The notes beneath the pieces are model-generated. The model was not told the origin of the DNA. It made no database searches and saw only the letters and a list, made by a program, of their open reading frames with translations. Of a DNA stretch of 64,000 nt, positions 910-43,313 are shown in pieces; position 1 is the stretch's first letter, and every line of letters begins with the position of its first letter. Location of the stretch: NCBI GenBank assembly GCA_028641055.1, contig CM054062.1:183581958-183645957 (forward strand), given 5' to 3'. The DNA is from Alopecurus myosuroides (Eukaryota > Streptophyta > Magnoliopsida > Poales > Poaceae). The translations under genes and the position numbers were made by a program.

Positions 910-3900
910 ATGGATAATTGATAGTGGATGCACTAGTCATATGACCGGAAGCGCCCAAATGATATTGATGCAACCGTCACCTGTGGAGACAAGTCCAAGT
1001 CTAAGGTATGGGGGTTTGGCAATGTTGTGATTGCTCCTGATATCAATCTCGTGGACGTCATGCTTGTTGAATCCCTTGGTCACAATTTACTTTCAGTTTG
1101 TTCATTAGGGAAGATGGGTTTGTCCGTCTTCTTTGATCCTGATATTGTGGTCCTTTTGAGGAGCAAGACTCTTGACGTCGCATACGTGGGACATGTTGAA
1201 AATGAGTTGTTCGTGCTGGACTTTTCGAAGTCTACCAACTCTCAATCAATGTGTATTTTCGGAAAGGCGGACGTGGGGTGGTTGTGGCATCGCCGCTTAT
1301 CCCATGTCAACATGAGAACTTTGCAAAGTCTTCACAAAGGTGGCCTTATCCTCGTACTAAAATAAAATGTTTCCTTTTCCAAAGATCGCGTTTGTAGGTC
1401 GTGTGTTGAAGGAAAGATGCATGATGCCGCCCACAAGGCCAAGACTATTATCTCATCAAAGAGGATCTTGGAGCTTCTCCATGTTGATCTCTTTGGTGTC
1501 GTGCCCGAGGCAAGTGTTGATGGCAAGAATTATTGCTTGGTGATTGTCGATGACTATTCAAGATACACTTGGTTTCATTTCTTCAAGTGCAAGAGAGAGA
1601 CCCAACAAACTAGCAACGACTTCACCAACCAAGTGCAACGTCAACACAATGTTCAAATCATGCCTATTAGGAGTGACAATGGCTTCGAGTTCAAGAACTA
1701 CACTTTGAACGAATTCCTTAGTGAAGAGGGGATTCGTCATCAATATTCCTCCACCTCCACCCCTCAACAAAATGGTGTAGCCAAGCGGAAGAATAGAACT
1801 CTATTGGATATGTCAAGGACCATGTTGGCGGAGTATTCTTATCCCCAATGTCTATGGGCCGAGGCCATATCCACCGCATGCCACTCCTCCAACCGCCTCT
1901 ACATCCGCAAGACCTTGGACAAGACTCCACATGAGATCCTCACCGGAAACAAACCCAACGTCTCCTAATTCCGCGTATTTGGTTGTAAGTGTTTCTATTT
2001 GATCAAGGGTGTTCGGTTATCTAAATTCCAATCTAAAACTATTGAGGGTATATTTGTTGGTTACGGTGCCGAATCCCACACTTATAGAGTCTTTGGCAAA
2101 GCCTCACAGATTTCCGTAGAATCTTGTAGTGTCGTTTTCGAGGAAAATGATGGCTCCCAAGTGGCGCAATTTCATGTTTCTAATGTAGATGTTGAAATGC
2201 CTCAAGAATCCATAGGAAGGATGGGTGTGGGATTTTTCTGCACCATCGAGGGACACCTTATGGCAACTCGAGAAGGACTATGCTCTACTCAAGTGGAGTC
2301 GTCCTCTACAATAGAAGAACAAGCCAAGGAGCTAAATGATGCACCTAACCAAGAACATGTTGAAGACCCTCCTCTCATTGACCAAGTGACTATGCAAGAT
2401 GCAACCACTCCTATCATTCAAGTTATTCAAGGTCAAGGCCAAGATCAACCGTCCTCATCCTCCTCTCCTCAAGTTGAAAAAAGTGTTGATCATGATGATG
2501 ATGATCAAGGCCAACAAGTTGGTCACGGAGAACCAAATGATCAAGATGATAAAATGATTCCTCCTCACAATAATGAGGAGATCGAAGACCGACATGCTAA
2601 AAGGATTAGAAGAGCTTTGAAGCGTATTGATGCTTCCGAAAACAAAGTGTTGGAAGATATTCAAACTAAAAGATACACAAGAAGGAAATTGGCAAACTTT
2701 AGTGAAAATCAAGCTCACATATACATGGTGGAACGAAAGAAGGGGTTTGAAGCTCTTGAGGACTCCGATTGGTTTGAAGCTATGCATGATGGGCTCAATA
2801 ACTTTGAGCGCAATAAAGTTTGGAAGCTTGTTGAGAAGCCCAAGGATTGCCACAATGTTATCTGCACTAAGTGGATTTTCGAGAACAAACAAGATGAGCA
2901 TGGTATTGTTATAAGGAACAAGGCAAGATTGGTGGCTCAAGGCTACACTCAAGTGGAAGGCATTGAATTTGATGAAACCTATGCTCCCATGGCTCGCCTT
3001 GAGTCCATCTGTATCCTTCTTGCATATGCATCTTTGCATAATTTCAAATTTCAACAAATGGATGTCAAAAGTGCTTTTCTAAATGGTCCACTAAAAGATG
3101 AGGTATATGTTAAGCAACCTCCGGGGTTCGAGAACCCCAACTTCCCTAACCATGTCTACAAGCTCGATAAGGAGCTCTATGGACTTAAGCAAGCACCACG
3201 TGCGTGGTATGAGCACCTTAGAGAGTTGTTGGAAGACCGTGGGTTTGAAGTTGGGAATGTCAAACCCACCCGTTTCACAAAGAGGGTAAAGGGAGATTTT
3301 CATATGCAAACTCTATGTGGACGATAATATGTTTGGCTCAACTAACCAAGCTTTTAATAATGAGTTCTCAAAGCTTATGACTGACAGGTTTGAGATGTCC
3401 ATGATGGGAGAGCTTAAATTCTTCCTTGGCTTTAAGATCAAGCAATTGCCTTGTGGGACTTTCATTTCTCAAGCCAAGTATACCCAAGACATGCTCAAAA
3501 GGTTTAATTTCCAAGGTGCAAAAGAGAAGTCATCTCCTATGCAAGTCAAATGTCACCTCAAGCACAATCCAGATGGTAAAGATGTGGACCAAAAGTTGTA
3601 TTGTTCTATGATTGGTTCTTTGCTTTAACTTTGTGCATCTTGGCCCGATATCGTTTTGGGTGTAGGTGTGTGTGCAAGGTATCAAGCGGCTCCTAAGGAA
3701 AGCCACTTGGTGGCGGTCCATAGGATCTTTTGGTATTTGGTTCATACCTCAAGGTTTGGTTTGTGGTACCCAAATGGGACACAATTTCCTCTCAAGGGCT
3801 ACACGGACTCGGATTGGGACGATGATCAAGATGATAGGAAGTCTACTTCTGGGGCTTGCCAATTTCTTGGTAGGTCCTTGGTGAGTTGGTCTTCCAAGAA

Positions 3901-3990: not shown

Positions 3991-4973
3991 CAAGTGATTT
4001 GTCAATTCACCTGCACCTGAAAGTACTTTTGTTCGCAGTGGTTTATCAATAGTAACATTTTTATAGTAACAACAGTAGTGAAATAATAGCATCAGTGGAA
4101 TGAAAACAGCAGCAGCAGTAGTGTTTGAAGTAAACATCGGGATTAAATACTGTAGCCATCCCCTCCGGTTGTCCCAATTTATGTCACTTCGGGGCCTCGG
4201 GTTCCGGACAACAATGTGTGTAAACAACCTACAGGTATGATCAAGAAACAATAATTATCATCGTGATTCAATAACATGTTCAGATCTGAGATCATGGCAC
4301 TCGGGCCCAAAGTGGCAAGCATTAATCATAACAAGTTGCAACAATGTCAATATCACTAGTAGAGGATACTAGGCACTATGCCCTAACAATCACGGCATTA
4401 TTACATGAACGATCTCATCCAATCCCTAACATCCCCTTCAGCCTACAGCGGGGGAATTACTCACACATGGATGGTCGATGGAGAGGCGTTGGTGATGACG
4501 ATGATCTCCTCCACTTCCCTGTCCCGGCAGGGTGCCAGAACAGGAACTTCTGATCCCCGAATCGAGGTTCGGGACGACGGCGGCGCTATGTTGTGTTTCT
4601 GTGGAATGTGACGAACCCCCTCGGGTTTTAGGGTTGGAGGCTACTTGTAATCGAAAGGGGAGTCCGAGGGGGGCTCTGGGGGGCCCACATCCTATGCTGG
4701 CGCGGCCAGGGGGACCCGCGCCAGGGGGTGTGGCCACCCTGTGGCTCCTCTCCTGGCGCCCTTCTGGCTCCCGGGGTCTTTCGGGGTGAAAACATCAATG
4801 GGCTCTTTTCGGGGCATTTTCCAGAAAGTTGATTTTTCTACACACAAAAAAGACACCAAGTTAATTCCGCTGAAAACAGCATTAGTCCGTGTTAGTTGTA
4901 TTCAAAACACACAAGTTTATAAGAAAACAATAAGAAAAGTGTTAGGAAAAGGAGATACGTTTTCGACGTGTCA
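3956..4973 (-). mobile_element. 3' LTR of an Athila-like gypsy element, end truncated
   Basis: On the minus strand an LTR starts at 4973 with TGACACGTCGAAAACGTATC, right after a polypurine tract (RC of 4974-4987, AAGCTTGGGGGAGT). The start matches the TGATACGTCTCCAACGTATC-type ends of abundant Triticeae gypsy LTRs. It runs to the junction with the copia element near 3955. The last expected stretch before the terminal CA is missing, so the LTR is truncated there. No coding capacity is expected, and the short open frames in it are chance. Confidence 0.7.
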
Positions 4974-5940
4974 ACTCCCCCAAGCTTAGCTTATTTCTTG
5001 TCCTCAAGCAATTCAGTGACAACTGAGTGCGATAAAAGACTTTGACGAACACATTTGTTTCATATGATGGAAATATACTCACTATATGATCACAAACTTA
5101 ATTATGCTCATGATAAGATACATGCAAGGTATTGTCACTTAATAGCTATGCAAACCATGAAGAGATAACAACATACTAATAATAAAAAACATGAAGCATA
5201 ACTATTTGCAAGATTGAAGTATTCATAATAGGATCTGATAAAGTGGTATCTCGCTTGCCCTTAAGTGTGGGGAGAAACATAAATGCCAGGGCACCTCTGA
5301 AGTTCAAGGGAAGACTAGAAGTAAAGATATCAAAGATACAAGTATCAAAGTTATACCACAATCAACCGTACTTTGGGACAAACACATCACACTAAGAATG
5401 ACCATTGTGCTCTCAAGAAAGTGCTCAAAGAATATGGCGGAGACTCAACATAAAAGTAAAAGAAAGGCCCTTCGCAGAGGGAAGCATGGATCACTCATGT
5501 GCTAGAGATTTTTATTTTATTAAACAGAGGTATTAAAAACATTTTGAGAGAGGTGTATGATTATGTCAACGAATGGTAGACAGACAACACAGTACGTCAC
5601 AAGCCAACTAGATTCACAAGAGCGGCTCCCATGTGAAGGACGCATCTGGGTAGAAGGTCATCCCTCTTTCTCTTTTGTTTACACAATTATGTTTTGACTA
5701 ATAAATCAGGGGAAAAAAGAGTGAAGAGAATTTGTGTCTATTAATTTGGGGCTGGGCACCCCGCTGCCATCTCTTCTATCATTTGGATAAGCGGATGAAG
5801 CCACTAGTCCAGGGTGTGAAATCCAATCAACAAGTGAGATAAAGATTCTCTATTTACGTCCCCATGAGCTAAAACAGGGGCACAAAACAAGAATAATTTT
5901 TAGCAGGTTTTAAAGGTAGCACAGGAGCAATTTACTTGGA
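4974..5940 (-). mobile_element. gypsy internal non-coding region upstream of the minus-strand 3' LTR
   Basis: This stretch lies upstream of the polypurine tract of the minus-strand LTR. It is AT-rich, full of stops on both strands, and reads like the long non-coding region between pol and the 3' LTR of Athila-group elements. I see no gene. The boundary with the plus-strand element to the right is set by change in character only and is uncertain by about 200 bases. Confidence 0.5.
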
Positions 5941-10855: not shown

Positions 10856-11401
10856 AGCACATCTCTCAGTTTGTTCACCTTTGGGGCCTCATTCAAGCTG
10901 TCAACCTGGCCCCTGGGATTGACGACGCCATCACTTGGACCCTCTCGACTTCTGGAACTTACACGACCAAGTCCGCTTATAAGGCGCAACTCATTGGCGC
11001 CTTATCATGCTCGTTTATGAGCGTTGTCTCGAGGACCTGGGCCCCTCCGGAATGCTCCTGCTTCGCCTGGCTTGACGAGCATAATAGATTTGCAGATGTC
11101 AACCTGAGAGTGGAAGACACATCGGATAGTCTATGAGACGTTGGATCGTTTATGAGACGTCGGATTGTCTGGCCATCAGGGGTGGCCTCACCAACCCGTC
11201 TGTCAGCTTTGCAGATGTCAACCGGAGAGCGGAAGACACATCATGTTTAAATGTTGTTTCTCCAAAAGGATCTGGGCGGATGCGGCCCTTTGGCTTCCCT
11301 GCCCTTCCCTCATGCAATGGCCTTGGATCCACTAAGCCTACGACCTTCGACTACTGGAAGACTTTAGCGGGCACGCCATCTACCTCTCTCAAAGGCCCCA
11401 A
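10856..11401 (+). mobile_element. LINE (L1-type) RT C-terminal part, left half of a split copy
   Basis: Conceptual translation gives ISQFVHLWGLIQAVNLAP, TWTLSTSGTYTTKSAYKAQL and WAPPECSCFAWL, the zinc-binding C-terminal domain (zf-RVT) of plant LINE reverse transcriptases. After a frameshift come IRGGLTNPS and FSKRIWADAALWLPCPSL, the downstream part of the same domain. A 36 bp piece (TTTGCAGATGTCAACC...) occurs twice, at about 11091 and 11203. The LINE continues at 19889-20152 after a MITE and a CACTA insertion. The 5' end is not identified, so it is either 5' truncated or decayed. Stops show it is dead. Confidence 0.75.
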
Positions 11402-11610
11402 CACTAGTGGAAACAGGGCCTTTTGTCCCGGGTCGTAAGGGCCATTTGTCCCGGTTGCGCAACCGGGATGGGCTAGCCGGGACAAATGGCCCTCCCCATT
11501 GGTCCCGGTTGTGCCAGCACCCGGGATGGTAAGGCTGGCCCACGTGGCGACTCTGGGCCAGGGACCGCGAGGGAGTTCGTCCCGGTTCGTTTTAGGGACC
11601 GGGATGGATG
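11402..11610. repeat. CACTA-1 left terminus and subterminal repeats
   Basis: The terminal inverted repeat is followed by alternating direct and inverted copies of a TTTGTCCCGG / CCGGGATGG core (11424-11605). In En/Spm elements such motifs are binding sites for the transposon's own DNA-binding protein. The matching array on the right is at about 19450-19680. Confidence 0.8.
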
Positions 11611-12177
11611 CCTTCTTAAAAAAAGAATAAAGTCCGCCCATTTTCCCTGCCGCGGCAGGTTTTTTTTGTTCGTTTTTTTTTCTCCTGCCTCGCAATCGCC
11701 AACCGGCCTCCCCTTCCCCAACCGCTCCAGGCCCACGTCTTTAATTAAGCCCACTGACACATTTTTTAGTCAAAAAGGCCCACTGGCCCGCGTCTTTTAT
11801 TTATGGACAGTCAACGGTTCGAAGGGCCCACTGGCCCGCGCCTGTTATTATGGCCAGTCAACAGGGGCCACTGGCCAGCGGCCTGGTGGCTGGTTCGCCT
11901 GGTCCATTAAACTAAGACCGAAGGACGGTCAAAGGGCCGCTGTCCGCCTCGTCTTCCCGCCCCGCCTCGTCTTCCCGCCCCGCCTCGGCTTCCCACGCCC
12001 CACTCCCCACGCGCCACGCCTCGGCTCCCCGCATTCATGGCCGCCTGCAACCGCCGCCACGTTCAGGCCGCCGGTTGGCATGCCAGCCCAGCCCGGGTCC
12101 TTTTTAAAGGCCCCCCGCCGCCCGTACAACCCACCCACCCCGGACGCGTCCCTGGCAAAGCAACCCTAGCCGCCACC

Positions 12178-13227
12178 ATGTCCCGCTGGTTCTCGAACTC
12201 CGGCAAGCGCCCAAGGAACGACGACGGAGGCTCGTCGAGCGGCGCAGGCCGCATCCCGCCCCCGCCGGCGGAGGCCTTCGGCTACGGCCCTGGAGGTGTC
12301 CGCCTCGGCGGGGTGCCACGCGTCCCCGCGCCACCACCGGCTGCACGCCCGCCGCCCCGCGCCGCGCCCCCGGGCAAGCGGTTCCGCCGGTACGTCCGGG
12401 TGGACGAGGCGGAGTGGCACTGGAACAATGCCACTCCGGTGTTCTACAACGACGTGCACCTCCCCGACGGCTGGCACCTGAATCCCCAGCGGATCCCAGT
12501 GCCGCCGGCCCCGACCGGCGCGGCGCTGCTCGAGGAGATCGAGCGCCGCCGCGAGCTCCTGCCGGCCCCCGTCCGCAGGGAGCGGATGTACGCGCGCAGC
12601 TCCCCCTACTGGGCCGCCTGGCTCGAGCAGGAGCACGAGCAGCGCCGCCGCTCCTTCATCCCCGCCCCCCTCGAGGCCAACGTGGACGACTACCCCCCGC
12701 CAGCGCCCGGCCGGGAGAGGGAGCTATGGCTCCTCGTGGACGAGCCGGAGGACTTCTCCGGGGAGCCGGACCCCGAGCTCCGGGCCCAACTGGAGGAGGC
12801 CTGCGAGCGCTCCCGCCGCTCCCTCGTCGACGACGAGATCAAGAGGTGGCATCGTGTCGTGGCCGCCGCCGCCGCCGACGCCGCTGCCATGCCACCGCTG
12901 CCGCCACCCCCTAACGAGCCTGCCATCCCCTGGTGGCAGGCCATGAACGCCGAGCTGGAGGCGTCCGAGGACATGCCGGAGCCGCAGCCGCTCCCACCAG
13001 GCCTGGAGTATGGCATGACCTGGGCCTGGACCGGCGGCGTTTGGGCGCCGGGGTCGCCGGAGCAGGAGGAGGAGCTGCCCCCGCCGCCGCCGCTGCCACA
13101 GGAGGTACTGCCCCCGCCGCCGCCGTACGCGCCCCCGATGCCCCCCCCGGCGAGCCCGGCCCAGCCGCCTGCCCACCTGTGGCAGGCACCCGCGTATGTA
13201 CACCTCTCCGACGACGAGGACGACTAG
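12178..13227 (+). CDS. CACTA-associated ORF1 protein, proline-rich, function unknown
   Basis: This 349-codon open gene starts at the ATG in a strong plant context (GCCGCCACCATGTC), with a TTTAAA box about 70 bases upstream (12103-12108). An in-frame upstream extension to 12037 exists, but its ATG context is poor. The protein has a basic, low-complexity N-terminus (KRPRNDD, residues 9-15), a conserved-looking core (PDGWHLNPQRIPVPPAP, residues about 98-114, then RRRELL and YWAAWLEQEHEQR), acidic stretches, and a proline-rich tail (about 290-340) ending in SDDEDD. GC content is very high. A shorter relative with the same motif order lies in CACTA-3 (53996-54448), so I read it as a transposon-borne protein family. 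An accessory or DNA-binding role is possible but not shown by the sequence. Confidence 0.65.
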   Translation: MSRWFSNSGKRPRNDDGGSSSGAGRIPPPPAEAFGYGPGGVRLGGVPRVPAPPPAARPPPRAAPPGKRFRRYVRVDEAEWHWNNATPVFYNDVHLPDGWHLNPQRIPVPPAPTGAALLEEIERRRELLPAPVRRERMYARSSPYWAAWLEQEHEQRRRSFIPAPLEANVDDYPPPAPGRERELWLLVDEPEDFSGEPDPELRAQLEEACERSRRSLVDDEIKRWHRVVAAAAADAAAMPPLPPPPNEPAIPWWQAMNAELEASEDMPEPQPLPPGLEYGMTWAWTGGVWAPGSPEQEEELPPPPPLPQEVLPPPPPYAPPMPPPASPAQPPAHLWQAPAYVHLSDDEDD

Positions 13228-13564
13228 GTCACCGCCGCCCCCCTATTATCTATAGACAACGCCCCTAGCTAGCTACCCCCCCAAGAAACGGCCGGCCCGC
13301 CTGTGGCCGCGCCGCCGCCCTTATGCAAGTACGGCCGGCCGCCTGTGGCCGCGCCGCCCCTATGTAAGCAAGGCCCCTGGCCCTATTTTAATATAAGTTG
13401 TGTTCCCCTAATCTACTGTGCCCCTAGTCCATCCCCGCCGGCGTTCCGCCGGCGAATCTGTCCACTCGTTCCCGCCGCCGGCAGGGCTTCGCCCAGCCAT
13501 ATCCACTCGTGCCCGCCCCTGGGGTGTCCGCTCGGGCTGGAGAGAGGGCCGCGCTTTTTTATAC

Positions 13565-13650
13565 ACTTGGGCCTTTAGTCCCGGCCCGTGCCACCAACCG
13601 GGACTAGAGCCCTTTGGTCCCGGTTGGTACCACGGCCCGGGACCAAAAAC
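13565..13650. repeat. internal subterminal-type repeats in CACTA-1
   Basis: TTTAGTCCCGG, ACCGGGACTAGAG, TTTGGTCCCGGTTGG and GGCCCGGGACC are packed within 85 bp. They resemble the subterminal arrays at the element ends but lie 2.2 kb inside. They close off an ORF1-containing module (11402-13650), similar to the module layout in CACTA-3. Confidence 0.7.
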
Positions 13651-13699
13651 AAATTTCGAATTTCGGTGGCACCTCTGCGCGCCCAAAATTTTTTAGCGC

Positions 13700-14028
13700 C
13701 AAAATTTGAAAAGTGTTAAGTTTGCACATTAACAACTTTTATATACTTCCAAATTTGACAAAAATTCCAACATGAAAAATGCTAGAATTTGCAAAACTAA
13801 TTTAAATCCATTTTTCGTTTAACTAAATAATTATTCTAACTATTGAAACTATTAATTATTTTTTCATTTGTATATAATTTGAATATAAATTATGGAAATT
13901 TATATTCAAATTATAAAGCGGCTCCGTGTCATACAAATTTCTGGAAATTTCCACCCATACACTTTTTGGAGCTAGGGCCTCATTTTCATAGTAGAAGTAG
14001 GGTGGCTTGTTCATCCTCTAGAGTCGAT
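13700..14028. other. AT-rich spacer in CACTA-1 with a small hairpin
   Basis: No gene is seen. A short inverted repeat near 13876-13912 (arms AATTTGAATATAAATT and AAATTTATATTCAAATT) surrounds a few bases of loop. Confidence 0.4.
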
Positions 14029-14708
14029 GTCAGTCCTAGCTGCTTGTCCATCCTCTACAGTCTGCTCTGCTCTGCTCTACTGCTCCTTGCGGCTCAGGTT
14101 GGTAACGGTCCATGTTTGCGTATGCTTTGTGAACTTATGGTTTGATTTGAGAATTTCAAAACTTTGATTTGATAATCTTTTGGCCGGAAGCACCTAGCAA
14201 TATCTTTTAAACCTTGTTTCTCTCCCTATGCTATTTGTACTTCTCATCGGCTCTAATGTTTCTCTACCTGATTCTACTTCTCCTCTGCCTAGTTTACAGA
14301 TGTTTGCTCTTTTCTGTAGATGTTTCTACACTGTAAAATGGGCATGTCCCAGTAGTGGTGATCAGCGACTTGTCTGCATGTTTCGCAGGACATGTCCATT
14401 TTACAGTGTAGAAACATCTACAGAAAAGAGCAAACATCTGTAAACTAGGCAGAGGAGAAGTAGAATCAGGTAGAGAAACATTACAGCCGATGAGAAGTAC
14501 AAATAGCATATGGAGAGAAACAAGGTTTAAAAGATATTGCTAGGTGCTTCCGGCCAAAAGATTATCAAATCAAAGTTTTGAAATTCTCAAATCAAACCAT
14601 AAGTTCACAAAGCATACGCAAACATGGACCGTTACCAACCTGAGCCGCAACGAGCAGTAGAGCAGAGCAGAGCAGACTCTAGAGGATGAACAAGCAGCCA
14701 GGACTGAC
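14029..14708. repeat. long foldback: 321 bp inverted arms, 38 bp loop
   Basis: The left arm 14029-14349 and right arm 14388-14708 are near-perfect reverse complements of equal length. They differ at only a few positions (for example GGCATGTCC versus GGACATGTCC at the loop edge), with no obvious indel. Mirror-image open frames on the two strands (14228-14443 plus and 14294-14509 minus) are a by-product. A transcript from either strand would fold into a hairpin of about 320 bp, a good Dicer-like substrate. The origin of the arm sequence is not recognised. Its position just downstream of the captured gene fragments inside CACTA-1 is discussed in the findings. Confidence 0.95.
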
Positions 14709-14799
14709 GTTGACAGATATATATCCGAGCGGTGGACAGTCCCTGGCCAAGCAGAAGCAACTGCATCCCCTATCGATGTAAAGCAGTCAGTCAAAACTT

Positions 14800-14917
14800 T
14801 TTTGGGTTGTTTATGGTGATTAACTCCAATGAATAACAATAGAGGCCTGCCATAATCACTTGTTCTATACCGTGTGTCAACACATACTACATCTCGAAAG
14901 TAGTTATAATCCTGCAA
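14800..14917 (-). pseudogene. captured fragment resembling FAR1/FHY3 or MULE transposase domain
   Basis: The minus-strand translation contains DYNYFRDVVCVDTRYRTSDYG followed by RPLLLFIGVNHHKQ. This matches the pattern of the MULE/FAR1 DDE domain (FGDVVxFDTTYRTNxYxxPFxxFxGVNHHxQ), including the first catalytic aspartate region. Only about 40 codons are present, fused at its 5' side to the DRM repeat in another frame. FAR1-related proteins are transcription factors derived from Mutator-like transposases. The source could be either a host FRS gene or a Mutator-like element. Confidence 0.7.
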
Positions 14918-14926
14918 TATCTGTCT

Positions 14927-15673
14927 CGGCAATCTCAATTAAAGTGCCAGTTTGTGTCTGATCCCACCAACCCCTCAAAATCCTCCTATTAACTTCACCT
15001 ATCTCAACTGAAATCACTGTCTTCATGTGGATGCCAAGCCTGTGCAAAGCTATCTCTCCTCCTCCAATACCGGAGAATAAGGACACCACATTAACACCAT
15101 TGGGAAACATGTTCTTCAACACCGACAAGTGGCAACCCACAGTATCAATTTGGAATGAATTGCATTCCGTGTACGCTATCATTAGTGAGAGACTTCACGT
15201 CGGCAATCTCAATTAAAGTGCCAGTTTGTGTCTGATCCCACCAACTCCTCAAAATCCTCCTATTAACTTCACCTATCTCAACTGAAATCACTGTCTTCAT
15301 GTGGATGCAAAGCCTGTGCAAAGCTATCTCTCCTCCTCCAATACCGGAGAATAAGGACACCACATTAACACCATTGGGAAACATGTTCTTCAACACCGAC
15401 AAGTGGCAACCCACAGTATCAATTTGGAATGAATTGCATTCCGTGTACGCTATCATTAGTGAGAGACTTCACGTCGGCAATCTCAATTAAAGTGCCAGTT
15501 TGTGTCTGATCCCACCAACTCCTCAAAATCCTCCTATTAACTTCACCTATCTCAACTGAAATCACTGTCTTCATGTGGATGCAAAGCCTGTGCAAAGCTA
15601 TCTCTCCTCCTCCAATACCGGAGAATAAGGACACCACATTAACACCATTGGGAAACATGTTCTTCAACACCGA
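14927..15673 (-). repeat. 2.7 tandem copies of a 274 bp unit with a DRM DNA-methyltransferase fragment
   Basis: Units start at 14927, 15201 and 15475 (period 274) and are almost identical, for example AACCCCTC versus AACTCCTC and GGATGCCAAG versus GGATGCAAAG. The third copy is cut at 15673. On the minus strand each encodes NSFQIDTVGCHLSVLKNM, VVSLFSGIGGGEIALHRL and SWWDQTQTGTLIEIADV. These match the plant DRM (DOMAINS REARRANGED METHYLTRANSFERASE) catalytic domain across the rearranged junction, including the S-adenosylmethionine motif I FSGIGG (about 15063-15080 in the first copy). The ENV/PC catalytic motifs and the UBA domains are absent, so no active enzyme can be made. The coding frame stays open through each unit, but the frame changes between units. 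Confidence 0.88.
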
Positions 15674-15865
15674 TCAATACAAATTATTGGTCAAACTTGC
15701 ACCTACTCCATTCATAATCACATAATATGTATAAATATCATTCTGGTTAACAAAATCTCGTTCATACTACGTTATAAGAACTATGATCATGTATTCCACG
15801 TTTATTATTACACATCACCAACAACATCCCTATCTAGTCTTCTGAATTTTCTTCGTGTCCCTTGC

Positions 15866-18800
15866 TTATGATCGCTTCGGCCGTAACCATGGAGCATCTT
15901 CATTATTTAACGGGATGGTAGGGTCAGATTTCACTGTGAAGGGTGGAATTTCAACAAACTTATTATAATCTTCTGACATGTCTGTCGTGTCCTCGATTCC
16001 CACAATGTTTCTTTTCCCTGAGAGAACTATGTGACGCTTCGGCTCATCGTATGATGAAATTGTTCCCTTATTTTTTCTTTTCTTCGGTCTGGAAGACATG
16101 TCCTTCACATAGAAGACCTGAGCCACATCATTGGCTAGAACGAATGGTTCGTCATTGTAACCAATACAGTTGAGATCCACTGTTGTCATTCCATAAAGCG
16201 GGTCTACCTTTACCCCTTCTCCATTCAGGTTGACCCATTTGCACTTGAACAAAGGGACCTTAAAAGAAGGTCCATAGTCAAGTTCCCATATCTCCTCTAT
16301 GTAACCATAGTATGTGTCAGTTTTTCCATTCTCGTTTGTTGTATCAAAGCGGACACCACTGTTTTGGTTGGTGCTCTTCTTATCTTGGGAGCTCGTGTAA
16401 AATGTATTTCCATTTATCTCGTACCCTTGAAAACTCCCAATAGTCGAAGATGGTGACCCTGCCAACATGTATAGCTGATCTTCAACAGTGGTGTCATTTA
16501 TAAGACGTGTTTGCAACCAACTTCCGAAAGTCTCCATATGTTCGCGTTTAATCCATGAGTCATCCTTCCCCGGGTTTGCAGACCGTACAATATTCTTGTG
16601 TTCCTCGACATACGTAGCCATGAACATAGAATTTTGTAGAACTGTGTAGTGTGCTTTGGTCAAAGAATGCCCGTCCCTAGGTATCATTGTTTTCTTTCCC
16701 AGCGTTCCTTTTCCCCTCAGTCTCCCCTCATGCCGCGATTCAGGAACACCAATTGTCTTAAGGTCAGGAATAAAGTCAACACAGAACCCAATGACCTCCT
16801 CTGTTCCATAGCCCTTCGAGATGCTTCCTTCTGGCCTAGCACGGTTATGAACATATTTCTTCAAGACTCCCATGAACCTCTCAAAGGGGAACATATTGTG
16901 TAGAAATACCGGACCAAGAATATGAATCTCTTCACATAGGTGAACCAGGAGATGAGTCATAATGTTGAAGAAGGATGGTGGGAACACCAACTCAAAACTA
17001 ACAAGACACTGGACCACATCCCTCTGTAATCTTGTCAGACTTTCTGGATCGATTACCTTCTGAGATATTGCGTTCATGAATGCACATAGCTTCACAATGG
17101 GTACTCGAACATTTTCCGGTAGAAGCCCCCTCAATGCAATCGGAAGCAATTGCGTCATAATCACGTGGCAGTCATGAGACTTCAGGTTTTGGAATTTTTT
17201 CTCTGCCATGTTTATTATCCCCTTTATATTCGACGAGAAGCCAGATGGAACCTTGATACTGTAAAGGACTTCAAAGAATATTTCCTTCTCTGCTTTAGTA
17301 AGAGCGTAGCTGCTTAAGGAATGGCGCCCTGTATCTGTGTGCTTGTTGCTTGGGTCTTTCATACGTTGCTGGTCCTCCCGTGCTTCAGGCGTATCTTTTG
17401 ACTTCCCATACACGCCCAGGAAGCATAGCAGATTGACACATAGATTCTTTGTCACGTGCATCACGTCGATCGAAGACCGGACATCTAAAACTTTCCAATA
17501 GGGTAGCTCCCAAAATATAGATTTCTTCTTCCACATGGGTGCCCGCTTATCAGGGCCGTACGGAACTGGTTGGCTGCCAGCAGCCTTACCAAAGATTACT
17601 TCTAGGTCCTTGACCATATCGAATATATCATTACCACTACGGAGCTCAGGCTTCTTTCGGTTATCTGCCTCACCTCTGAAATGCTTCCCTCCTTTTTTCC
17701 TTAAGGGATGCTTGATCGGAAGAAATCTACGATGCCCCAGGTATACAACCTTTTTACATTTATCCAAAAAAAACACTGTCAGTCTTATCTAAACAGTGTG
17801 TGCATGCATTGTATCCCTTGTTTGTATGACCGGAAATGTTACTAAGAGCTGGCCAATCATTGATGGTCACGAAAAGCAACGCCCGTAGGTCAAATGGCTT
17901 TTGTTCGTTCTCATCCCACACACGTACACCTGGTTTGCCCCACAGTTCTAAGAGTTCTTCCACTAATGGCCTTAGATACACATCAATGTCGTTGCCAGGT
18001 TGCCTCGGGCCTTGGATGAGAACTGGCATCATAATGAACTTGCGCTTCATGCACAACCAAGGAGGAAGGTTGTACATACATAGAGTTACAGGCCAAGTGC
18101 TATGACTGGAGCTCTGCTCCCCAAAAGGATTAAAGCCATCTGTACTTAGACCAAACCATAAGTTTCTCGCCTCTCCTGCAAAGTCTGGAAAGTCTCTCTC
18201 GATCTTTCTCCACTGCGATCCATCGGCGGGGTGCCTCAACTTTCCATCTTTCTTACGGTCTTCTTTGTGCCATCGCAACAACCTAGCATGCTCTTTGTTT
18301 CTAAACAGACGTTTCAGCCGTGGTATTATAGGAGCATACCACATCACCTTAGCAGGAACCCTCTTACGGGGAGGCTCGCCGTCAACATCACCAGGATCAT
18401 CTGCTCTGATCTTATACCGCAGTGCAGTGCATATCGGACATTCATCCAAATTCTCGTACTTCTCACCGCGGAAGAGAATGCAGTCATTAATGCATGCATG
18501 TATCTTCTGCACATCTAATCCTAGAGGGCAGAGAGCTTTCTTTGCTTCGTACGTACTCTCAGGCAATTCGTTATCCTTTGGAAGTTTTGGCTTCATTAGT
18601 TGAAGTAAAGTCTCAAATGCCTTGTCAGTCACACCGTTTTGTGCCTTCCATTTCAGCAACTCCAGTGTGGTACCGAGCTTTGTGCTACCATCTTCGCAAT
18701 TTGGGTATAACAATTTTTTGTGATCCTGTAACATGTTGTCCAGTTTCAACCTCTCCAATCTATTTTCACAGTCTTCCCTTGCATCAGCAATAACTCGGCC

Positions 18801-19303
18801 AAGATCATCATCGGGCTCTTCTGATGCCTGTTCTTGATCACCTCCTTCTTCTGCATTCTCTTCCATTGCAGTATCGTCGTATTCAGGGAACAAAGGATCT
18901 TCTTCTTCTTCTTCATCGTCTTCCATCACAACCCCTCTTTCTCCATGCTTGGTCCAGCAATTATAGCTGGGCATGAAACCTCTCCGAAGTAGATGGCCGT
19001 GAAGGATTCTTTCGGAAGAATGTTCTCTGACGTTCCGACAATCAACACATGGGCAACACATGAAGCCATTATCTTTGTTCGCCTGAGCTACAGCAAGAAA
19101 TGCATTCAGGCCTGCCATATACTCGGAGGTGCGTCGGTCACCGTACATCCATCGCTGCCGTGCATCCATCTGCATCATATAATTAAGTTTATCAAAATAC
19201 ATATTAATACAGAGATAACCACAGTACATCGACAAATAATACTTTTTTATGTATCAGTTACAGATGAAAAAGATAATTTGTTAACCTCGGTCGAAGAAAC
19301 CAT
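15866..19303 (-). pseudogene. CACTA-1 transposase, TNP2/TNPD type (one frameshift)
   Basis: Two long frames in sequence (19235-17760, then 17776-15866) make up one transposase of roughly 1,100 codons. A first mini-exon is likely: ATG at 19303 to GAG at 19286, donor GT, and acceptor AG at 19171-19170, joining to MDARQRWMYGDRR at 19169. The domains are an N-terminal transposase-associated region with CPCVDCRN and GFMPSYNCWTKHGE (zinc-binding type), the TNP2 core with LSTDGFNPFG, DIDVYLRPLVEELLELW and CTHCLDKTDS, then SSIDVMHVTKNLCVN, and a C-terminal region with RSRPKKRKNK-like basic stretches, ending DAPWLRPKRS. The only break is a frameshift at a run of eight T (plus-strand A at 17765-17772). 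In the family this enzyme cuts the CACTA ends. Confidence 0.88.
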
Positions 19304-19437
19304 TTTCAGTGAGCTTGTGTGCGTCTCGGGAATTTCGTCGAACACCTCGTGTGCATAGTAAAAAAAAAACAGCAACACCACACTCTCTCACACCTCCAAG
19401 CAAAAAAAAGATGGAAGGAGGGGGGGGGGCTGGGGCA

Positions 19438-19450
19438 GTATATATAGGGG
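19438..19450 (-). promoter_or_regulatory. TATA box for the CACTA-1 transposase
   Basis: The reverse complement reads CCTATATATACTG, a consensus TATA box about 135 bases upstream of the predicted ATG at 19303. It sits immediately inside the right subterminal repeat array. Confidence 0.6.
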
Positions 19451-19722
19451 AAGGGGGCATTGGTCCCGGTTCGTGGACTGAACCGGGACAACAGGTCATG
19501 CGCGTGCCACGTGGCCTGTGGCTAGGCATTGGTCCCGGTCCGTGGCACGAGCCGGGACGGATATGCCCCCACGAACCGGGACCAATGCGCCCAGGCGATT
19601 CCTGTTGCCCCGGGCGCACGAACCGGGACCAATGCAGGGCATTTGTCCCGGATTTGGTTGCAACCGGGACAGCTGCCCCCCGGCCCCCTGGACGAGAGGG
19701 GTTGTTTCCACTAGTGCAAGAC

Positions 19723-34829: not shown

Positions 34830-37800
34830 TGTGATGCCCCGAGATCGGGCACTATGCAGATTTCAGCATTCCCGCCAAAATCCACATAATAACCGATTCC
34901 AGGTTGCCACTTGTGATAACATTACAATAGTTCACGAATATTCCACATTTACAACAGAAACAGATAGATACAAGATGACTCAAACTAGCCAGGGTTACAA
35001 CTGATACATTACAAAGATCCAAAATAACAGCGGAAGAAACAACATATCGTCCCTCTACGGACAAGATCCAAATTGGACTAAGAGTCCTGAAGATAACCGA
35101 GAGCGTCCAATCCCTGCCCAGGCCAAGCCGGAGGGATTCCCAAGCTAACGTCGTCAGACTTCAAACCTGTTGACTGCAATTTGGAATTTGCAGCCACGAA
35201 AGAGATTTGTGGGTCAGTACGGTTAAGTACTGGCAAGGGGGATAAAACCCATACTCACAAGATACCGGCGTAGCCAGTCATCACAAGATACAAATACTTT
35301 AGGATCAACGGAAAGGAAGGGGTTATTGCAAAGAAGCGGCAGCGGGCTGCTCTAACCAACTACAGAGTTATACTACAACTTCCGGCTAACAGAAAGGAGA
35401 TAAGATCGAGTAATAGTAACCAACAGAAAGATAACTTCAAACAAACCCATCCTGGATCTCGCCCCTTATCCGAAGAAGCAATCCGAGGATAACTCACACA
35501 GTTGAGTTAATGATGGTTCAGATTATTGTGTCAATAAGCCTATTACTAGTCAAGTTGTTAATCATTGGGTGAAAGGTTGTTATTCATTAGGTTTAAGTTG
35601 TCCCGAGTACTTGTTAGCCAGTACTTTCACCAAGCAATCCATAACCGCGGAAAACACGGCTTCTCGAGAAGATTTACCCTGCAGGGGTGCACCATAGTAA
35701 CCGTACACGCATGAATATCCCGCCAGATGGAGCGGCCACTCCACCAAGCGGGGCACTCAACACAACCAACCCTTCTTCGCATCAAGCCCAAAGCATCGCG
35801 TGCTGTGCGTGCGCGGCTAATCGAGCCCCCCGAAGAAAAGGAGGACCCTCATAGCACTGGAAGACCACGCCGCCCTAAATGCCGACTACGAAAGTTCCAC
35901 CCTGGCGCCAAGGGTTCGTACCTGCGTATGATGCAGCAAATGGAACACCCGAACTAGTACGGCGATTTGGACGAGATGCGAATCGAGTCAGTTGAGGGGG
36001 GCGCCCATACTCGCTTCCCACATGCGGGTAGTGCGCTCATCATGGATCAGTAGACAAGACCCTTTTCCTATTAGGGTCGACACTAGCAGGCCTCAAAACC
36101 ACAAAGGGCCTCCTGCCGGTGCCTTATCATCAAATTATTATTAATAGTAACATTAGCATGATTGATTGATTAAGCATCGAGCCCCCAGAACATAATGAAG
36201 TAATAACAGAAAGTAACGGGTAACAGACTCGAGCAAAACAACCCTAAGCATGATAGTAAGACACGGGCAACAAGCAATGGTTATAGGTATGGAGGTGAGG
36301 CAATACCAAGGTTAAGGGATTCATGTGATGGGTTCGTAACAGAAACAACTACTACTAAGGATAGCAGAAACGAATCAACGGAAAGAATCGGTAACAAGTG
36401 ATGAAAGGCAGCCATATGGCAGCAAGTGAGTATACTTGCCTGAGATCCCGCAAGGTAGCAGAACTTGTCGCTGCTCACATCATCTCAACGTCCTATCCGG
36501 GAAGAAGCAACGAACTAAAAGAAACACCGGATGCAATAATTACTACTACGGCAAAAGATCCAGCATGATCCTATTTTATATGCATGACATGGCAAGATGC
36601 AACAGGGGAAACAACTTAAGCAAATTAATCGGAACCAGAGTCCGGAGAAATAGGAATTGGTTCAAGTTGTTTATCTAACCATCAATATTAAATGTTGATT
36701 AACAGGTTTAAACAAGGTAGAGGTGATTTATTCAATATTAAATGGAATAGGGCAACAATTGAATTAAATACCCCAACACATTCCATATTTAATTATTAGG
36801 TGACATTACTATTACCCGCACCCACAAAATGCAATGCAAACATGATGCGATGACATTTTAAATTTAGTTGATATGTTATAGAAAATAGGGCATAGGTATA
36901 GGGGTTTTAGGGTTTGGGTTCGCACGTGTGGAGGGGAGATCTTCGGGTTTGACGCCGGAAAGAAGGAGATCTTCGGAACAACGCCGGAGTGTTCGGGACG
37001 TGGACGAAGTAGCCGACGTAGAGGAAGTAGGGGAAGTAGATGTTCGTTCTCATGTAGTCGAGGAAGTAGTTGGTAACCACGTAGTGGAAGTAGTCGACGT
37101 CGAGGACGTAGTCGTTCCAGGGTCATCGTCATGGAGGTAGTCGTTCACGCCGTAGAGGAAGTAGTCGTTCTCGAATCACGCGGTCATCATCGTCGAAGTA
37201 GTCGTAGTAGTCGTGGGCGAACCGTAACAACACCGTCTTCGGGGTCGGAGGCGAACCTGACGGTCCCGGTCTTCGGGCGCGCACGAAGGCGGCCAACGCA
37301 AAACGGACACGTCGAAGGCGATGTAGTCGTTCACGGTTCATCGGGGAAGTAGTCGTGGTCGAGGTTTGGTCCGAGGTCCTCGGGGTGGCGGTACTTGTTG
37401 GCGATGATCTTGTCGATGCGGTACCGGTCGGTGTCGAACTTGTCGCCGGGAATCTTGTCGAGCTCACAGACACGGAACACACGGGCACGAAGGCCTCGGC
37501 CACACCAAAAACGGTGACGGCATCACCGTCGTCCCGTCGGCGACGGCAACACCACCACAGCAGCCAACACCACCAGACCACCCGTACACCACCATCGTGA
37601 GGCAGCGGGTCGAGGACGCCATAGTAGCAGTGCAGCCACAACTCCGTCCCGCCGGCATCGAAGATGGGCAGTAGCGGCACCAACGCAGCGACGTCGGCAC
37701 AAGGAGCACCTCAGTAGCGGCGCATCGACCTGCGCCGAGCCACACCGCGGCACCAGACCACCACCACACCAATCCACAAGGGAGGCAAGAGCCGGAAGGT

Positions 37801-38824
37801 GTGACAGCCATGGCGGAGCTACGTCGAGCAGCGGCAGCACCGGAGTTGGACGGCAGCGGCCGGAAGTCGTCGGGGACGGCACACGCGCGGACGTCGATTG
37901 ACAGGAGGTTGCCGAGGCGGAAGATAGGGCCGACGAGCTCGTCCTCGTTTGTCACGGAAGGGGAAGCTCGAGGCGCCGGGACGACACCACCATGTCGGGG
38001 CGGAGCAGGACCGAGGCCAGGGAAGGCCATGGCGGGGCGGAGGTCGTCGGGTTCCTGGCCGTCTACGTGGGGTGACAGGGAGCAGCAGCAGCGGGAGGCG
38101 CTCGGGGCAGCGAGGAGGACGGCGTTGGCTCGCCGGAGAGAGGAGGTGGCGGGGCGCCGAGGGGCTGCGACGGCGCGCTCGGGAGGATCTCCCGGCGGCG
38201 CGCGAGCGGAGCTTGAGCGAAGGGGAGCGGGGTGCGAGGACGGCGCGCGTCGGGCGGTGAGGCAGGGCTGGCGGGGACGAGCGGCGGTTTCCGGCCGGGG
38301 AGGAGCAGAGGGCGGCGTTGGAAGGAGGGGATCGAGGGGATCGGGGCTGGCGGCGCTCGATAGGGACGAGGTAGACGACAGGTGGGGGCTTCGATCGATC
38401 CCCCCTGTTTTTTTTCTTTTTCTTTCTCTTCCGTGCGTGGGTGCTGTGTGTGTTGCGTGCGTGTGTGCGTTGCGTGGGCGTGCGTGAGTTGTGTGGTGTT
38501 GTGTGCGTGTGTTGTGCCTGGGTGTGTGCGTGAGTTGTTGTGTGCGGGTGGTGTTGGGTGCAGGTGGGCTTAGGGTTTGCTAGGGTTTGGTGGTGGGCTG
38601 GCCTGGTTAGGCTGGCCTGCCACCCAAAAAATATATTTTTTTTTATATATATTTTTTTTCAGGTAAAGAAAAAAAAAGAGAAGTGGTTTAGGGATTTAGG
38701 GAACAAATTTTAACCATTTAGAATATGGTAGAAATAATTTTATTTATGCCATGTGATATGATGCATGACGATGCAAAGAGAAAAACAACAACCAAACTAA
38801 TTGGGGAAAACCCCGGGCGTTACA
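34830..38824 (-). repeat. 4 kb LTR, 3' copy
   Basis: This is the left copy. The region 36950-37400 is a low-complexity tract built on GTAGTCG/GAAGTAG units, and 37400-38400 is strongly GC-rich with long chance frames on both strands. Because these frames recur in both LTRs and show no domain, I do not call them genes. A T-rich tract lies at 38630-38665. Confidence 0.9.
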
Positions 38825-39324
38825 GCCGACACCACTAACAAGGGGATTGCGCCCTCGCAATCCAACCACGAACCCGGGAGGGAGAAGGAGTTCGACTAAC
38901 GAATCTTCGCGCTTCCAGGTGATCTCCTCGACACCGCTAACAAGGGTTTCTCGACACCACTAACAAGGGAGTCCTGCTCGGGTTGATGACGATGTTCTTC
39001 CACCAGGAATCTTCCGATGATCGAACCTATTAGGTTAACGGCTCAGAAAACGTCCACCCACGTAGGATCCTAACACTTTGAAAGATAGACAAGAGGGGGA
39101 GACTCCAAAACAAATAAGATGGGAGGGGAAATAGAATAGGGATAAGGAGAAAACAAGAATCCTATTGAGATGTTTTGCAAAATAGTTTAGCAGAAATATT
39201 TTTTGACACGCTAGAAACAACGACCGTTAGCGAGGTTAACCTACAGGCTTTGCGGACCCGTTGCTTCGATAACCATTCGTATCGAAACAATCTCGGGAAT
39301 CGGAACCAAGGCTCTGATACCATT
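38825..39324 (-). other. 500 bp interior of the 4 kb-LTR element with tRNA-Met primer site
   Basis: The interior contains three copies of GACACC(A/G)CTAACAAGGG (38828, 38930 and 38952) and a purine-rich stretch (39090-39150). The primer-binding site is the reverse complement of 39311-39323, matching initiator tRNA-Met over at least 13 bases. No canonical polypurine tract adjoins the 3' LTR. Confidence 0.8.
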
Positions 39325-42300
39325 TGTGACGCCCCGAGATCGGGCACTATGCAGATTTCAGCATTCCCGCCAAAATCCACATAATAACCGATTCCAGGTT
39401 GCCACTTGTGATAACATTACAATAGTTCACGAATATTCCACAATTACAACAGAAAAAGATAGATACAATATGACTCAAACTAGCCAGGGTTACAACTGAT
39501 ACATTACAAAGATCCAAAATAACAGCGGAAGAAACAACATATCGTCCCTCTACGGACAAGATCCAAATTGGACTAAGAGTCCTGAAGATAACCGAGAGCG
39601 TCCAATCCCTGCCCAGGCCAAGCCGGAGGGATTCCCAAGCTAACGTCGTCAGACTTCAAACCTGTTGACTGCAATTTGGAATTTGCAGCCACGAAAGAGA
39701 TTCGTGGGTCAGTACGGTTAAGTACTGGCAAGGGGGATAAAACCCATACTCACAAGATACCGGCGTAGCCAGTCATCACAAGATACAAATACTTTAGGAT
39801 CAACGGAAAGGAAGGGGTTATTGCAAAGAAGCGGCAGCGGGCTGCTCTAACCAACTACAGAGTTATACTACAACTTCCGGCTAACAGAAAGGAGATAAGA
39901 TCGAGTAATAGTAACCAACAGAAAGATAACTTCAAACAAACCCATCCTGGATCTCGCCCCTTATCCGAAGAAGCAATCCGAGGATAACTCACACAGTTGA
40001 GTTAATGATGGTTCAGATTATTGTGTCAATAAGCCTATTACTAGTCAAGTTGTTAATCATTGGGTGAAAGGTTGTTATTCATTAGGTTTAAGTTGTCCTG
40101 AGTACTTGTTAGCCAGTAATTTCACCAAGTAATCCATAACCGCGGAAAACACGGCTTCTCGAGAAGATTTACCCTGCAGGGGTGCACCATAGTAACCGTA
40201 CACGCATGAATATCCCGCCAGATGGAGCGGCCACTCCACCAAGCGGGGCACTCAACACAACCAACCCTTCTTCGCATCAAGCCCAAAGCACCGCGTGCTG
40301 TGCGTGCGCGGCTAATCGAGCCCCCCGAAGAAAAGGAGGACCCTCATAGCACTGGAAGACCACGCCGCCCTAAATGCCGACTACGAAAGTTCCACCCTGG
40401 CGCCAAGGGTTCGTACCTGCGTATGATGCAGCAAATGGAACACCCGAACTAGTACGGCGATTTGGACGAGATGCGAATCGAGTCAGTTGAGGGGGGCGCC
40501 CATACTCGCTTCCCACATGCGGGTAGTGCGCTCATCATGGATCAGTAGACAAGACCCTTTTCCTATTAGGGTCGACACTAGCAGGCCTCAAAACCACAAA
40601 GGGCCTCCTGCCGGTGCCTTATCATCAAATTATTATTAATAGTAACATTAGCATGATTGATTGATTAAGCATCGAGCCCCCAGAACATAATGAAGTAATA
40701 ACAGAAAGTAACGGGTAACAGACTCGAGCAAAACAACCCTAAGCATGATAGTAAGACACGGGCAACAAGCAATGGTTATAGGTATGGAGGTGAGGCAATA
40801 CCAAGGTTAAGGGATTCATGTGATGGGTTCGTAACAGAAACAACTACTACTAAGGATAGCAGAAAGGAATCAACGGAAAGAATCGGTAACAAGTGATGAA
40901 AGGCAGCCATATGGCAGCAAGTGAGTATACTTGCCTGAGATCCCGCAAGGTAGCAGAACTTGTCGCTGCTCACATCATCTCAACGTCCTATCCGGGAAGA
41001 AGCAACGAACTAAAAGAAACACCGGATGCAATAATTACTACTACGGCAAAAGATCCAGCATGATCCTATTTTATATGCATGACATGGCAAGATGCAACAG
41101 GGGAAACAACTTAAGAAAATTAATCGGAACCAGAGTCCGGAGAAATAGGAATTGGTTCAAGTTGTTTATCTAACCATCAATATTAAATGTTGATTAACAG
41201 GTTTAAACAAGGTAGAGGTGATCTATTCAATATTAAATGGAATAGGGCAACAATTGAATTAAATACCCCAACACATTCCATATTTAATTATTAGGTGACA
41301 TTACTATTACCCGCACCCACAAAATGCAATGCAAACATGATGCGATGACATTTTAAATTTAGTTGATATGTTATAGAAAATAGGGCATAGGTATAGGGGT
41401 TTTAGGGTTTGGGTTCGCACGTGTGGAGGGGAGATCTTCGGGTTTGACGCCGGAAAGAAGGAGATCTTCGGAACAACGCCGGAGTGTTCGGGACGTGGAC
41501 GAAGTAGCCGACGTAGAGGAAGTAGGGGAAGTAGATGTTCGTTCTCATGTAGTCGAGGAAGTAGTTGGTAACCACGTAGTGGAAGTAGTCGACGTCGAGG
41601 ACGTAGTCGTTCCAGGGTCATCGTCATGGAGGTAGTCGTTCACGCCGTAGAGGAAGTAGTCGTTCTCGAATCACGCGGTCATCGTCGTCGAAGTAGTCGT
41701 AGTAGTCGTGGGCGAACCGTAACAACACCGTCTTCGGGGTCGGAGGCGAACCTGACGGTCCCGGTCTTCGGGCGCGCACGAAGGCGGCCAACGCAAAACG
41801 GACACGTCGAAGGCGATGTAGTCGTTCACGGTTCATCGGGGAAGTAGTCGTGGTCGAGGTTTGGTCCGAGGTCCTCGGGGTGGCGGTACTTGTTGGCGAT
41901 GATCTTGTCGATGCGGTACCGGTCGGTGTCGAACTTGTCGCCGGGAATCTTGTCGAGCTCACAGACACGGAACACACGGGCACGAAGGCCTCGGCCACAC
42001 CAAAAACGGTGACGGCATCACCGTCGTCCCGTCGGCGACGGCAACACCACCACAGCAGCCAACACCACCAGACTACCCGTACACCACCATCGTGAGGCAG
42101 CGGGTCGAGGACGCCATAGTAGCAGTGCAGCCACAACTCCGTCCCGCCGGCATCGAAGATGGGCAGTAGCGGCACCAACGCAGCGACGTCGGCACAAGGA
42201 GCACCTCAGTAGCGGCGCATCGACCTGCGCCGAGCCACACCGCGGCACCAGACCACCACCACACCAATCCACAAGGGAGGCAAGAGCCGGAAGGTGTGAC

Positions 42301-43313
42301 AGCCATGGCGGAGCTACGTCGAGCAGCGGCAGCACCGGAGTTGGACGGCAGCGGCCGGAAGTCGTCGGGGACGGCACACGCGCGGACGTCGATTGACAGG
42401 AGGTTGCCGAGGCGGAAGATAGGGCCGACGAGCTCGTCCTCGTTTGTCACGGAAGGGGAAGCTCGAGGCGCCGGGACGACACCACCATGTCGGGGCGGAG
42501 CAGGACCGAGGCCAGGGAAGGCCATGGCGGGGCGGAGGTCGTCGGGTTCCTGGCCGTCTACGTGGGGTGACAGGGAGCAGCAGCAGCGGGAGGCGCTCGG
42601 GGCAGCGAGGAGGACGGCGTTGGCTCGCCGGAGAGAGGAGGTGGCGGGGCGCCGAGGGGCTGCGACGGCGCGCTCGGGAGGATCTCCCGGCGGCGCGCGA
42701 GCGGAGCTTGAGCGAAGGGGAGCGGGGTGCGAGGACGGCGCGCGTCGGGCGGTGAGGCAGGGCTGGCGGGGACGAGCGGCGGTTTCCGTCCGGGGAGGAG
42801 CAGAGGGCGGCGTTGGAAGGAGGGGATCGAGGGGATCGGGGCTGGCGGCGCTCGATAGGGACGAGGTAGACGACGGGTGGGGGCTTCGATCGATCCCCCC
42901 TGTTTTTTTTTTCTTTCTCTTCCGTGCGTGGGTGCTGTGTGTGTTGCGTGCGTGTGTGCGTTGCGTGGGCGTGCGTGAGTTGTGTGGTGTTGTGTGCGTG
43001 TGTTGTGCCTGGGTGTGTGCGTGAGTTGTTGTGTGCGTGTGGTGTTGGGTGCAGGTGGGCTTAGGGTTTGCTAGGGTTTGGTGGTGGGCTGGCCTGGTTA
43101 GGCTGGCCTGCCACCCAAAATATTTTTTTTTTTTATATATATTTTTTTCAGGTAAAGAAAAAAAAAGAGAAGTGGTTTAGGGATTTAGGGAACAAATTTT
43201 AACCATTTAGAATATGGTAGAAATAATTTTATTTATGCCATGTGATATGATGCATGACGATGCAAAGAGAAAAACAACAACCAAACTAATTGGGGAAAAC
43301 CCCGGGCGTTACA
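39325..43313 (-). repeat. 4 kb LTR, 5' copy
   Basis: This is the right copy, next to the primer site. It differs from the left copy by about 17 point changes (for example TTGTG/TTCGTG near 39703 and CATCATCG/CATCGTCG near 41680) and small indels in T and A runs near 42905 and 43120. Confidence 0.9.

Follow-up and report, generated by a model that had tools for sequence, protein, structure and literature searches.

DRM enzymes, acting through RNA-directed DNA methylation, help to silence transposons. Why, then, should a transposon carry repeated pieces of a DRM gene? The question is raised by the window analyzed here, a stretch of 64,000 nucleotides from blackgrass (Alopecurus myosuroides), in which positions 14926-15673 of the minus strand hold a DRM tandem array (period 274, 2.7 copies, 99% matches). 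The array lies within a complete CACTA (En/Spm-type) element of 8315 bp on the minus strand (11402-19716), with the terminal inverted repeat (TIR) CACTAGTGGAAAC and a CAA target duplication at 11399-11401 and 19717-19719. The tnp2 frame, on the same strand, consists of an N-terminal part (17760-19235; Transpos_assoc and Transposase_21) and a C-terminal part (15866-17776; the end of Transposase_21, DUF4218, and DUF4216), and Pfam detected Transposase_21 at E 1.4e-68 and Transpos_assoc at E 1.8e-20. The two parts are out of frame with each other here and overlap at 17760-17776, and tnp2 is a single open frame in a relative, L041. A gap of 192 bases separates the array from the transposase frame, which ends at 15866. 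Because a short, weak MULE-type transposase-like fragment (14804-14890, minus strand; 27.5 bits versus a cut-off of 27.6) adjoins the array on its other side, the element may hold more than one foreign piece. Beyond it lies an inverted repeat at 14023-14714, with arms of 327 nt (14023-14349 and 14388-14714) that are 97% complementary around a 38-nt loop; its fold z-score is -57.6 (20 shuffles). A long proline-rich open frame runs antisense to the transposase (12178-13227, plus strand) and had no Pfam match, and Rfam gave five matches up to E 1 across the element, none at the gathering score.

The array is made up of unit 1 (14926-15199), unit 2 (15200-15473), and unit 3 (15474-15673), a partial unit of 200 bp that comes first in sense order. 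Two sites set unit 1 apart from the other units; units 2 and 3 do not differ over the 200 bp that they have in common. On the minus strand a full unit reads NSFQ...FSGIGGGE...WWDQTQTGTLIEIAD, and the partial unit corresponds to the later part. Solved DRM-type methyltransferases match the array unit at E 2.6e-30 (4onq) and 4.3e-30 (DRM2, 7l4c), and PF00145 scores 18.8, 16, and 16.9 bits on the array, under its curated cut-off of 22. The array stops short of the motif IV Pro-Cys position. No open frame runs through the whole array, and its period of 274 is not a multiple of three. The original prediction was of an amplified DRM fragment with the FSGIGG motif on the transposase strand of a CACTA transposon, which is what the 2.7 units of 274 bp in the element at 11402-19716 represent. 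Absent from that prediction was a second DRM piece on the minus strand at 13920-14006 (PPYFYYENEALAPK...), which corresponds to the start of the captured exon and is immediately preceded by an ATG at 14012-14014.

The array recurs across the genome. We searched the species' own assembly (G000; 3.567 Gb, 3227 contigs) with the unit, and the best 40 of 335 candidates fell at 40 separate places, the window included, all with 98-100% matches. The array has thus been copied along to no fewer than 40 places, and the family copy numbers given here are lower bounds. We retrieved the sequence at 20 of the 39 remaining places; the array is present in all 20, this being the criterion by which they were selected. 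In 18 of the 20 copies both TIRs are exact and the 3-bp target duplications on the two sides agree, and this is so even in L013 despite an internal deletion; L011 and L012 have one exact TIR. Compared with the window element, the longest aligned block of each copy shows 98.5-99.7% identity, and left-hand blocks go down to 96.1%. Unit number varies from 2.7 to 4.7 across copies, and 62 bp of extra DRM exon is retained in 6 of the 20. Among 21 copies, pairwise diversity came to 0.09-0.46% for the array, 0.28-0.36% for tnp2, and 1.3-2.0% for the left part; since array similarity was the basis of selection, a low value for the array is unsurprising and is no evidence.

A donor gene of high nucleotide identity, another expectation of the original prediction, was located at L042 (C4, 291763100-291768800). 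Its exons match residues 3-563 of the Alopecurus aequalis protein P0085, including the UBA-containing N-terminal part, and the two are 94% identical over 372 residues. The window units are 97.3-98.2% identical to L042 in nucleotide sequence, and the second piece is 97.7% identical. Array and donor both have DRM catalytic-domain sequence that includes the FSGIGG motif. Since the fragment aligns gap-free to one donor exon, no intron was retained. The predicted Triticeae origin did not hold up: among 138 proteins, A. aequalis P0085 was the nearest to both the unit (94.3%) and the second piece (93.1%). An early best match, L031, in which motif IV is present, reached only 86-88% in nucleotides and was superseded by L042; the first genome probe spanned a loop that the donor is missing and was therefore a poor probe for it.

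Where intact DRMs read GGSPCNNL...GLEGEQ at the motif IV site, the donor reads FDFVIGGLEGEQ, and because its last exon carries this sequence unbroken, the loop is missing at the DNA level. Sixteen residues with the motif IV Pro-Cys are missing in all seven annotated proteins of the clade (P0083, P0085, P0086, P0100, P0105, P0111, and P0115); a text search flagged P0147 as a further candidate. All seven are from Poeae: one from Avena, one from Puccinellia, two from Lolium, one from Festuca, and P0085 and P0115 from A. aequalis. The metagenome proteins P0008 and P0139 are similar to the loop-less proteins at this site. GGSPC occurs in 170 of 185 proteins. At the ENV motif, which we take to be motif VI, 150 of the 152 GGSPC proteins where it was found read ENV, whereas the motif is relaxed in the seven loop-less proteins, which show E three times, M twice, and L and V once each. 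In a quick tree of 41 rows, the seven proteins and the window sequence form one clade (SH-aLRT 100), which falls within Pooideae DRM2-like proteins that have motif IV (forks 93 and 96, in a tree without DRM3 sequences).

The donor, without its motif IV Pro-Cys loop, is predicted to be catalytically dead and may be dispensable, whereas the original prediction had named a de novo methyltransferase gene as the source. The finding also points to a Poeae lineage of loop-less DRM paralogues, which may represent another dead-enzyme lineage alongside DRM3. DRM3, described as a catalytically mutated DRM paralogue (PMC2965745), likewise lacks the motif IV Pro-Cys; in the Poeae lineage 16 residues are missing, and in the tree above, which included no DRM3, it groups within the motif-IV-bearing Pooideae DRM2-like proteins. 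An AlphaFold model of A. aequalis P0085 (mean pLDDT 56.7, pTM 0.42) was too weak for use. Seven further DRM loci (L029-L034 and L037) have last-exon open frames of at least 385 aa with motif IV present, which makes for a large DRM family in the blackgrass genome. The protein of one of these, L031, is 95% identical to A. aequalis P0019.

How far the donor's last exon has travelled was apparent from a probe made from the part of that exon which separates the two window pieces. The best 150 of 1006 candidates were scored, all at 94-96%, and one is the donor itself, which leaves a minimum of 149 exon copies outside the donor gene. They are not whole genes of the donor kind, because a probe from the N-terminal exons found 47 matches from 75 candidates, with the donor on C4 at the top and the next, at 46.87 Mb on C7, at 81%. 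We examined 14 of the 149, only two DRM-frame relatives with surrounding sequence beyond about 1 kb, and infer that the other 135 are likewise transposon-borne. L041 is a CACTA relative with one TIR inside 8 kb and an undivided tnp2 frame that reaches 878 aa before the fetched sequence breaks off. In it, tnp2 is followed by one copy only of the inverted-repeat arm and then, directly downstream, by 897 bp of the donor last exon (97.9%), which, read from an ATG, stays open for 343 aa, the loop-less end included. L040, the other relative, is shorter; it has both TIRs as well as CAA duplications, and its truncated tnp2 continues in frame into the DRM segment. L040 and L041 both retain the left element region with the proline-rich frame, at 84-86% identity. 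L041 also has a separate partial DRM copy before the hairpin arm (3051-3231), with a 3' flank unlike that of the window units, and its presence indicates that DRM pieces were shuffled in the family more than once.

Twelve further loci were obtained as 1-kb pieces. Eleven match from the same donor position as the L041 segment, and L052 starts later; an MNK start precedes the DRM segment in 10 of the 11 (the L051 frame was left out). ATG-led frames of 343 aa occur in L041 and L043-L048. By hand tally, 125 of the 150 scored hits, donor included, are stop-free over the 141 residues probed and 25 have a stop, in a ranking by similarity that favours intact copies. Frame lengths of 343, 389, and 274 aa are common among the copies; of the 150 scored rows, 34 show 274 aa and 19 show 204 aa.

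The units themselves bear marks of an intermediate source. Unit 1 is identical to L050 and L054, which are 274-class copies, over 238 bp (14926-15163; 238/238), and identity to these two copies is 98.7-99.3% for the remaining units. At donor position 5279, every unit has the same base as L050, L054, and L040. The 274 bp of unit 2 consist of 262 bp of donor exon and a 12-bp junction, 11 bp of which are common to the 274-class copies; the full junction thus has 11 bases of L050/L054 flank that are absent from the donor. Because of this identity, the base at 5279, and the 11-bp non-host flank, we conclude that the array arose from a transposon-type DRM copy and not straight from the gene. The window element derives, by deletion and tandem duplication, from a CACTA family that carries DRM sequence.

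Now that the structure, the donor, and the family are established, and the unit is traced to a transposon-type copy, a history of the family can be proposed. It would have captured an 897-bp segment of the last exon of a host loop-less DRM gene, from PPYFYYEN to just before the stop (4585-5481 of reverse-complemented L042), and spread this cargo widely, to at least the 149 places outside the gene, the copies losing parts of it during the spread. In the window sub-family, most of the DRM frame would have been deleted, with the piece at 13920-14006 remaining; a 274-class fragment upstream would have been amplified in tandem to 2.7-4.7 units, and the stretch before the DRM frame would have turned into the inverted repeat. 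We infer this order of capture, deletion, array, and hairpin events. Synonymous divergence between the donor and eight copies was 0.047-0.058. At the rate of 7e-9 per site per year given in PMC10120058, the capture would be at most roughly 3.4-4.1 million years old, donor polymorphism included.

Most likely, the DRM DNA is mainly hitch-hiking cargo, and we take this as the default reading. That the family is a cargo carrier, with capture, spread, loss, and a tandem array, and with siRNAs as a by-product, seems to us reasonably probable. Such siRNAs, matching host DRM mRNAs, would be expected because the DRM DNA is multicopy, tandem, beside a long hairpin, and identical to the donor over stretches of up to 95 nt. 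The family resembles Pack-CACTA and Pack-TYPE elements (PMC8903248, PMC13317346) in being a TIR element with captured host coding DNA, here 97-98% identical to L042. Pack-TYPE elements are described there as nonautonomous, whereas the blackgrass family retains tnp2, as in the 878-aa open frame of L041.

A rival reading is that the captured DNA acts on its host. Transcripts, or double-stranded RNA primed by the hairpin, might yield siRNAs that lower host DRM mRNAs, weaken RNA-directed DNA methylation, and so aid the spread of the element. Perfect matches to the donor account for 438 of the 728 array 21-mers, and perfect 21-mers were also found in the motif-IV loci L031 (46), L030 (18), and L033 (16). 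The position of the array next to the 327-nt inverted repeat and the copy numbers (at least 40 places for the array, at least 149 for the exon) also count in favour of this reading. On the other side, 8 of the 11 first-found DRM loci contain no perfect array 21-mer, and the best-matched target is a motif-IV-less paralogue rather than an active-type enzyme. Nor do the hairpin arms significantly match the donor locus L042, introns included (best E 0.78), so a miR820-like origin of the hairpin from a DRM intron was rejected. RNA-level suppression of host DRM genes by the elements is plausible from these matches, but we regard such suppression as an anti-silencing mechanism as unlikely overall.

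The precedent for it, and the one case found of a CACTA family turning a captured DRM piece against RNA-directed DNA methylation, is in rice, where CACTA elements encode miR820, which comes from a fold-back similar to the region from exon 2 to intron 3 of OsDRM2 and cleaves OsDRM2 mRNA (Nosaka et al. 2012, PMC3459959). In both cases a grass CACTA family has multiplied host DNA of DRM, a gene in RNA-directed DNA methylation. The rice family has five copies in Nipponbare according to that report, whereas blackgrass has at least 149 exon copies, and the captured segment here is not exon 2 to intron 3 of OsDRM2 but a last-exon catalytic-domain segment of a motif-IV-less paralogue. The rice fold-back is DRM-derived, in contrast to the blackgrass hairpin without a donor match, and the rice miRNA has been tested, whereas any function of the tandem array and long open frames described here is hypothetical. 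Among the literature matches listed, a DRM-carrying CACTA outside rice was not reported, and the terms CACTA and methyltransferase are not in the main text of the blackgrass genome paper (PMC10108218). Because the rice CACTA family uses a piece of DRM2, repeated DRM capture may be no accident. With a different DRM segment present in many copies of a CACTA family from another grass tribe, one can ask whether such capture reflects recurrent counter-defence or chance; together with rice miR820, an anti-silencing role here would make DRM capture a recurrent CACTA counter-defence. We give only about a one-in-a-handful chance to the full proposal, in which a second independent grass CACTA capture of a DRM gene would serve as an anti-silencing device, with siRNAs or the frames of the relatives lowering DRM in trans and allowing a burst to hundreds of copies. 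Now that the donor gene, the classes of element, and the shared 21-mers are defined, counter-defence can be put to a direct test in blackgrass.

Camouflage is a more doubtful account than RNA-level suppression. Under it, silencing the elements would be costly since siRNAs would hit the donor as well, and selection on the host would keep silencing weak. According to a review, captured sequences serve as siRNA reservoirs and possibly as camouflage, the latter being a general model for maize captures (PMC13317346), and the long perfect matches to the donor are of the kind it calls for. The donor, however, looks catalytically dead and may be dispensable.

Poisoning at the protein level is more improbable still. 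In relatives such as L041, the 343-aa frame would produce a methyltransferase domain without UBA or motif IV, which might pair with active DRM2 and disable it; the ATG-led frames in L041 and L043-L048 and the 125 stop-free hits out of 150 are compatible with this. The window element is without the frame, however, many relatives have shorter ones (274 aa in 34 of 150, 204 aa in 19 of 150), and the similarity ranking inflates the share of intact copies. Single-copy changes also look neutral. We found no purifying selection on the DRM frame among changes seen once in the 14 copies, which comprise 27 non-synonymous and 11 synonymous changes and no stop, against a neutral expectation of 2.4-2.7 non-synonymous to 1 synonymous; these copies were picked by probe similarity and are mostly stop-free, which biases constraint tests. 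Changes common to at least two of the 14 copies number 4 non-synonymous and 4 synonymous, with replacements below neutral but too few for judgement. Host and copies differ by 9 non-synonymous and 9 synonymous changes, and some of the replacements are host-side as judged by P0085 (segment residues 171, 175, and 232). On these comparisons, protein-level selection on the copies gives no clear sign. A transposon that opposes silencing would be analogous in outcome to VANDAL elements with VANC, but VANC proteins are sequence-specific anti-silencing proteins, and no host methyltransferase piece is mentioned in the portion of PMC10398659 that describes them.

Near-identical tandem units can be misassembled, but chance similarity or an artefact confined to this locus is as good as ruled out by the match to a solved DRM at E 2.6e-30, by the array at 40 of 40 scored places, and by the TIRs with their own 3-bp duplications in 18 of 20 copies.

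Elsewhere in the window, at about 36000-43100, tandem-repeat rows are spaced by about 4.49 kb (36995/41490 and 38432/42923), which suggests a large direct duplication or an LTR pair.
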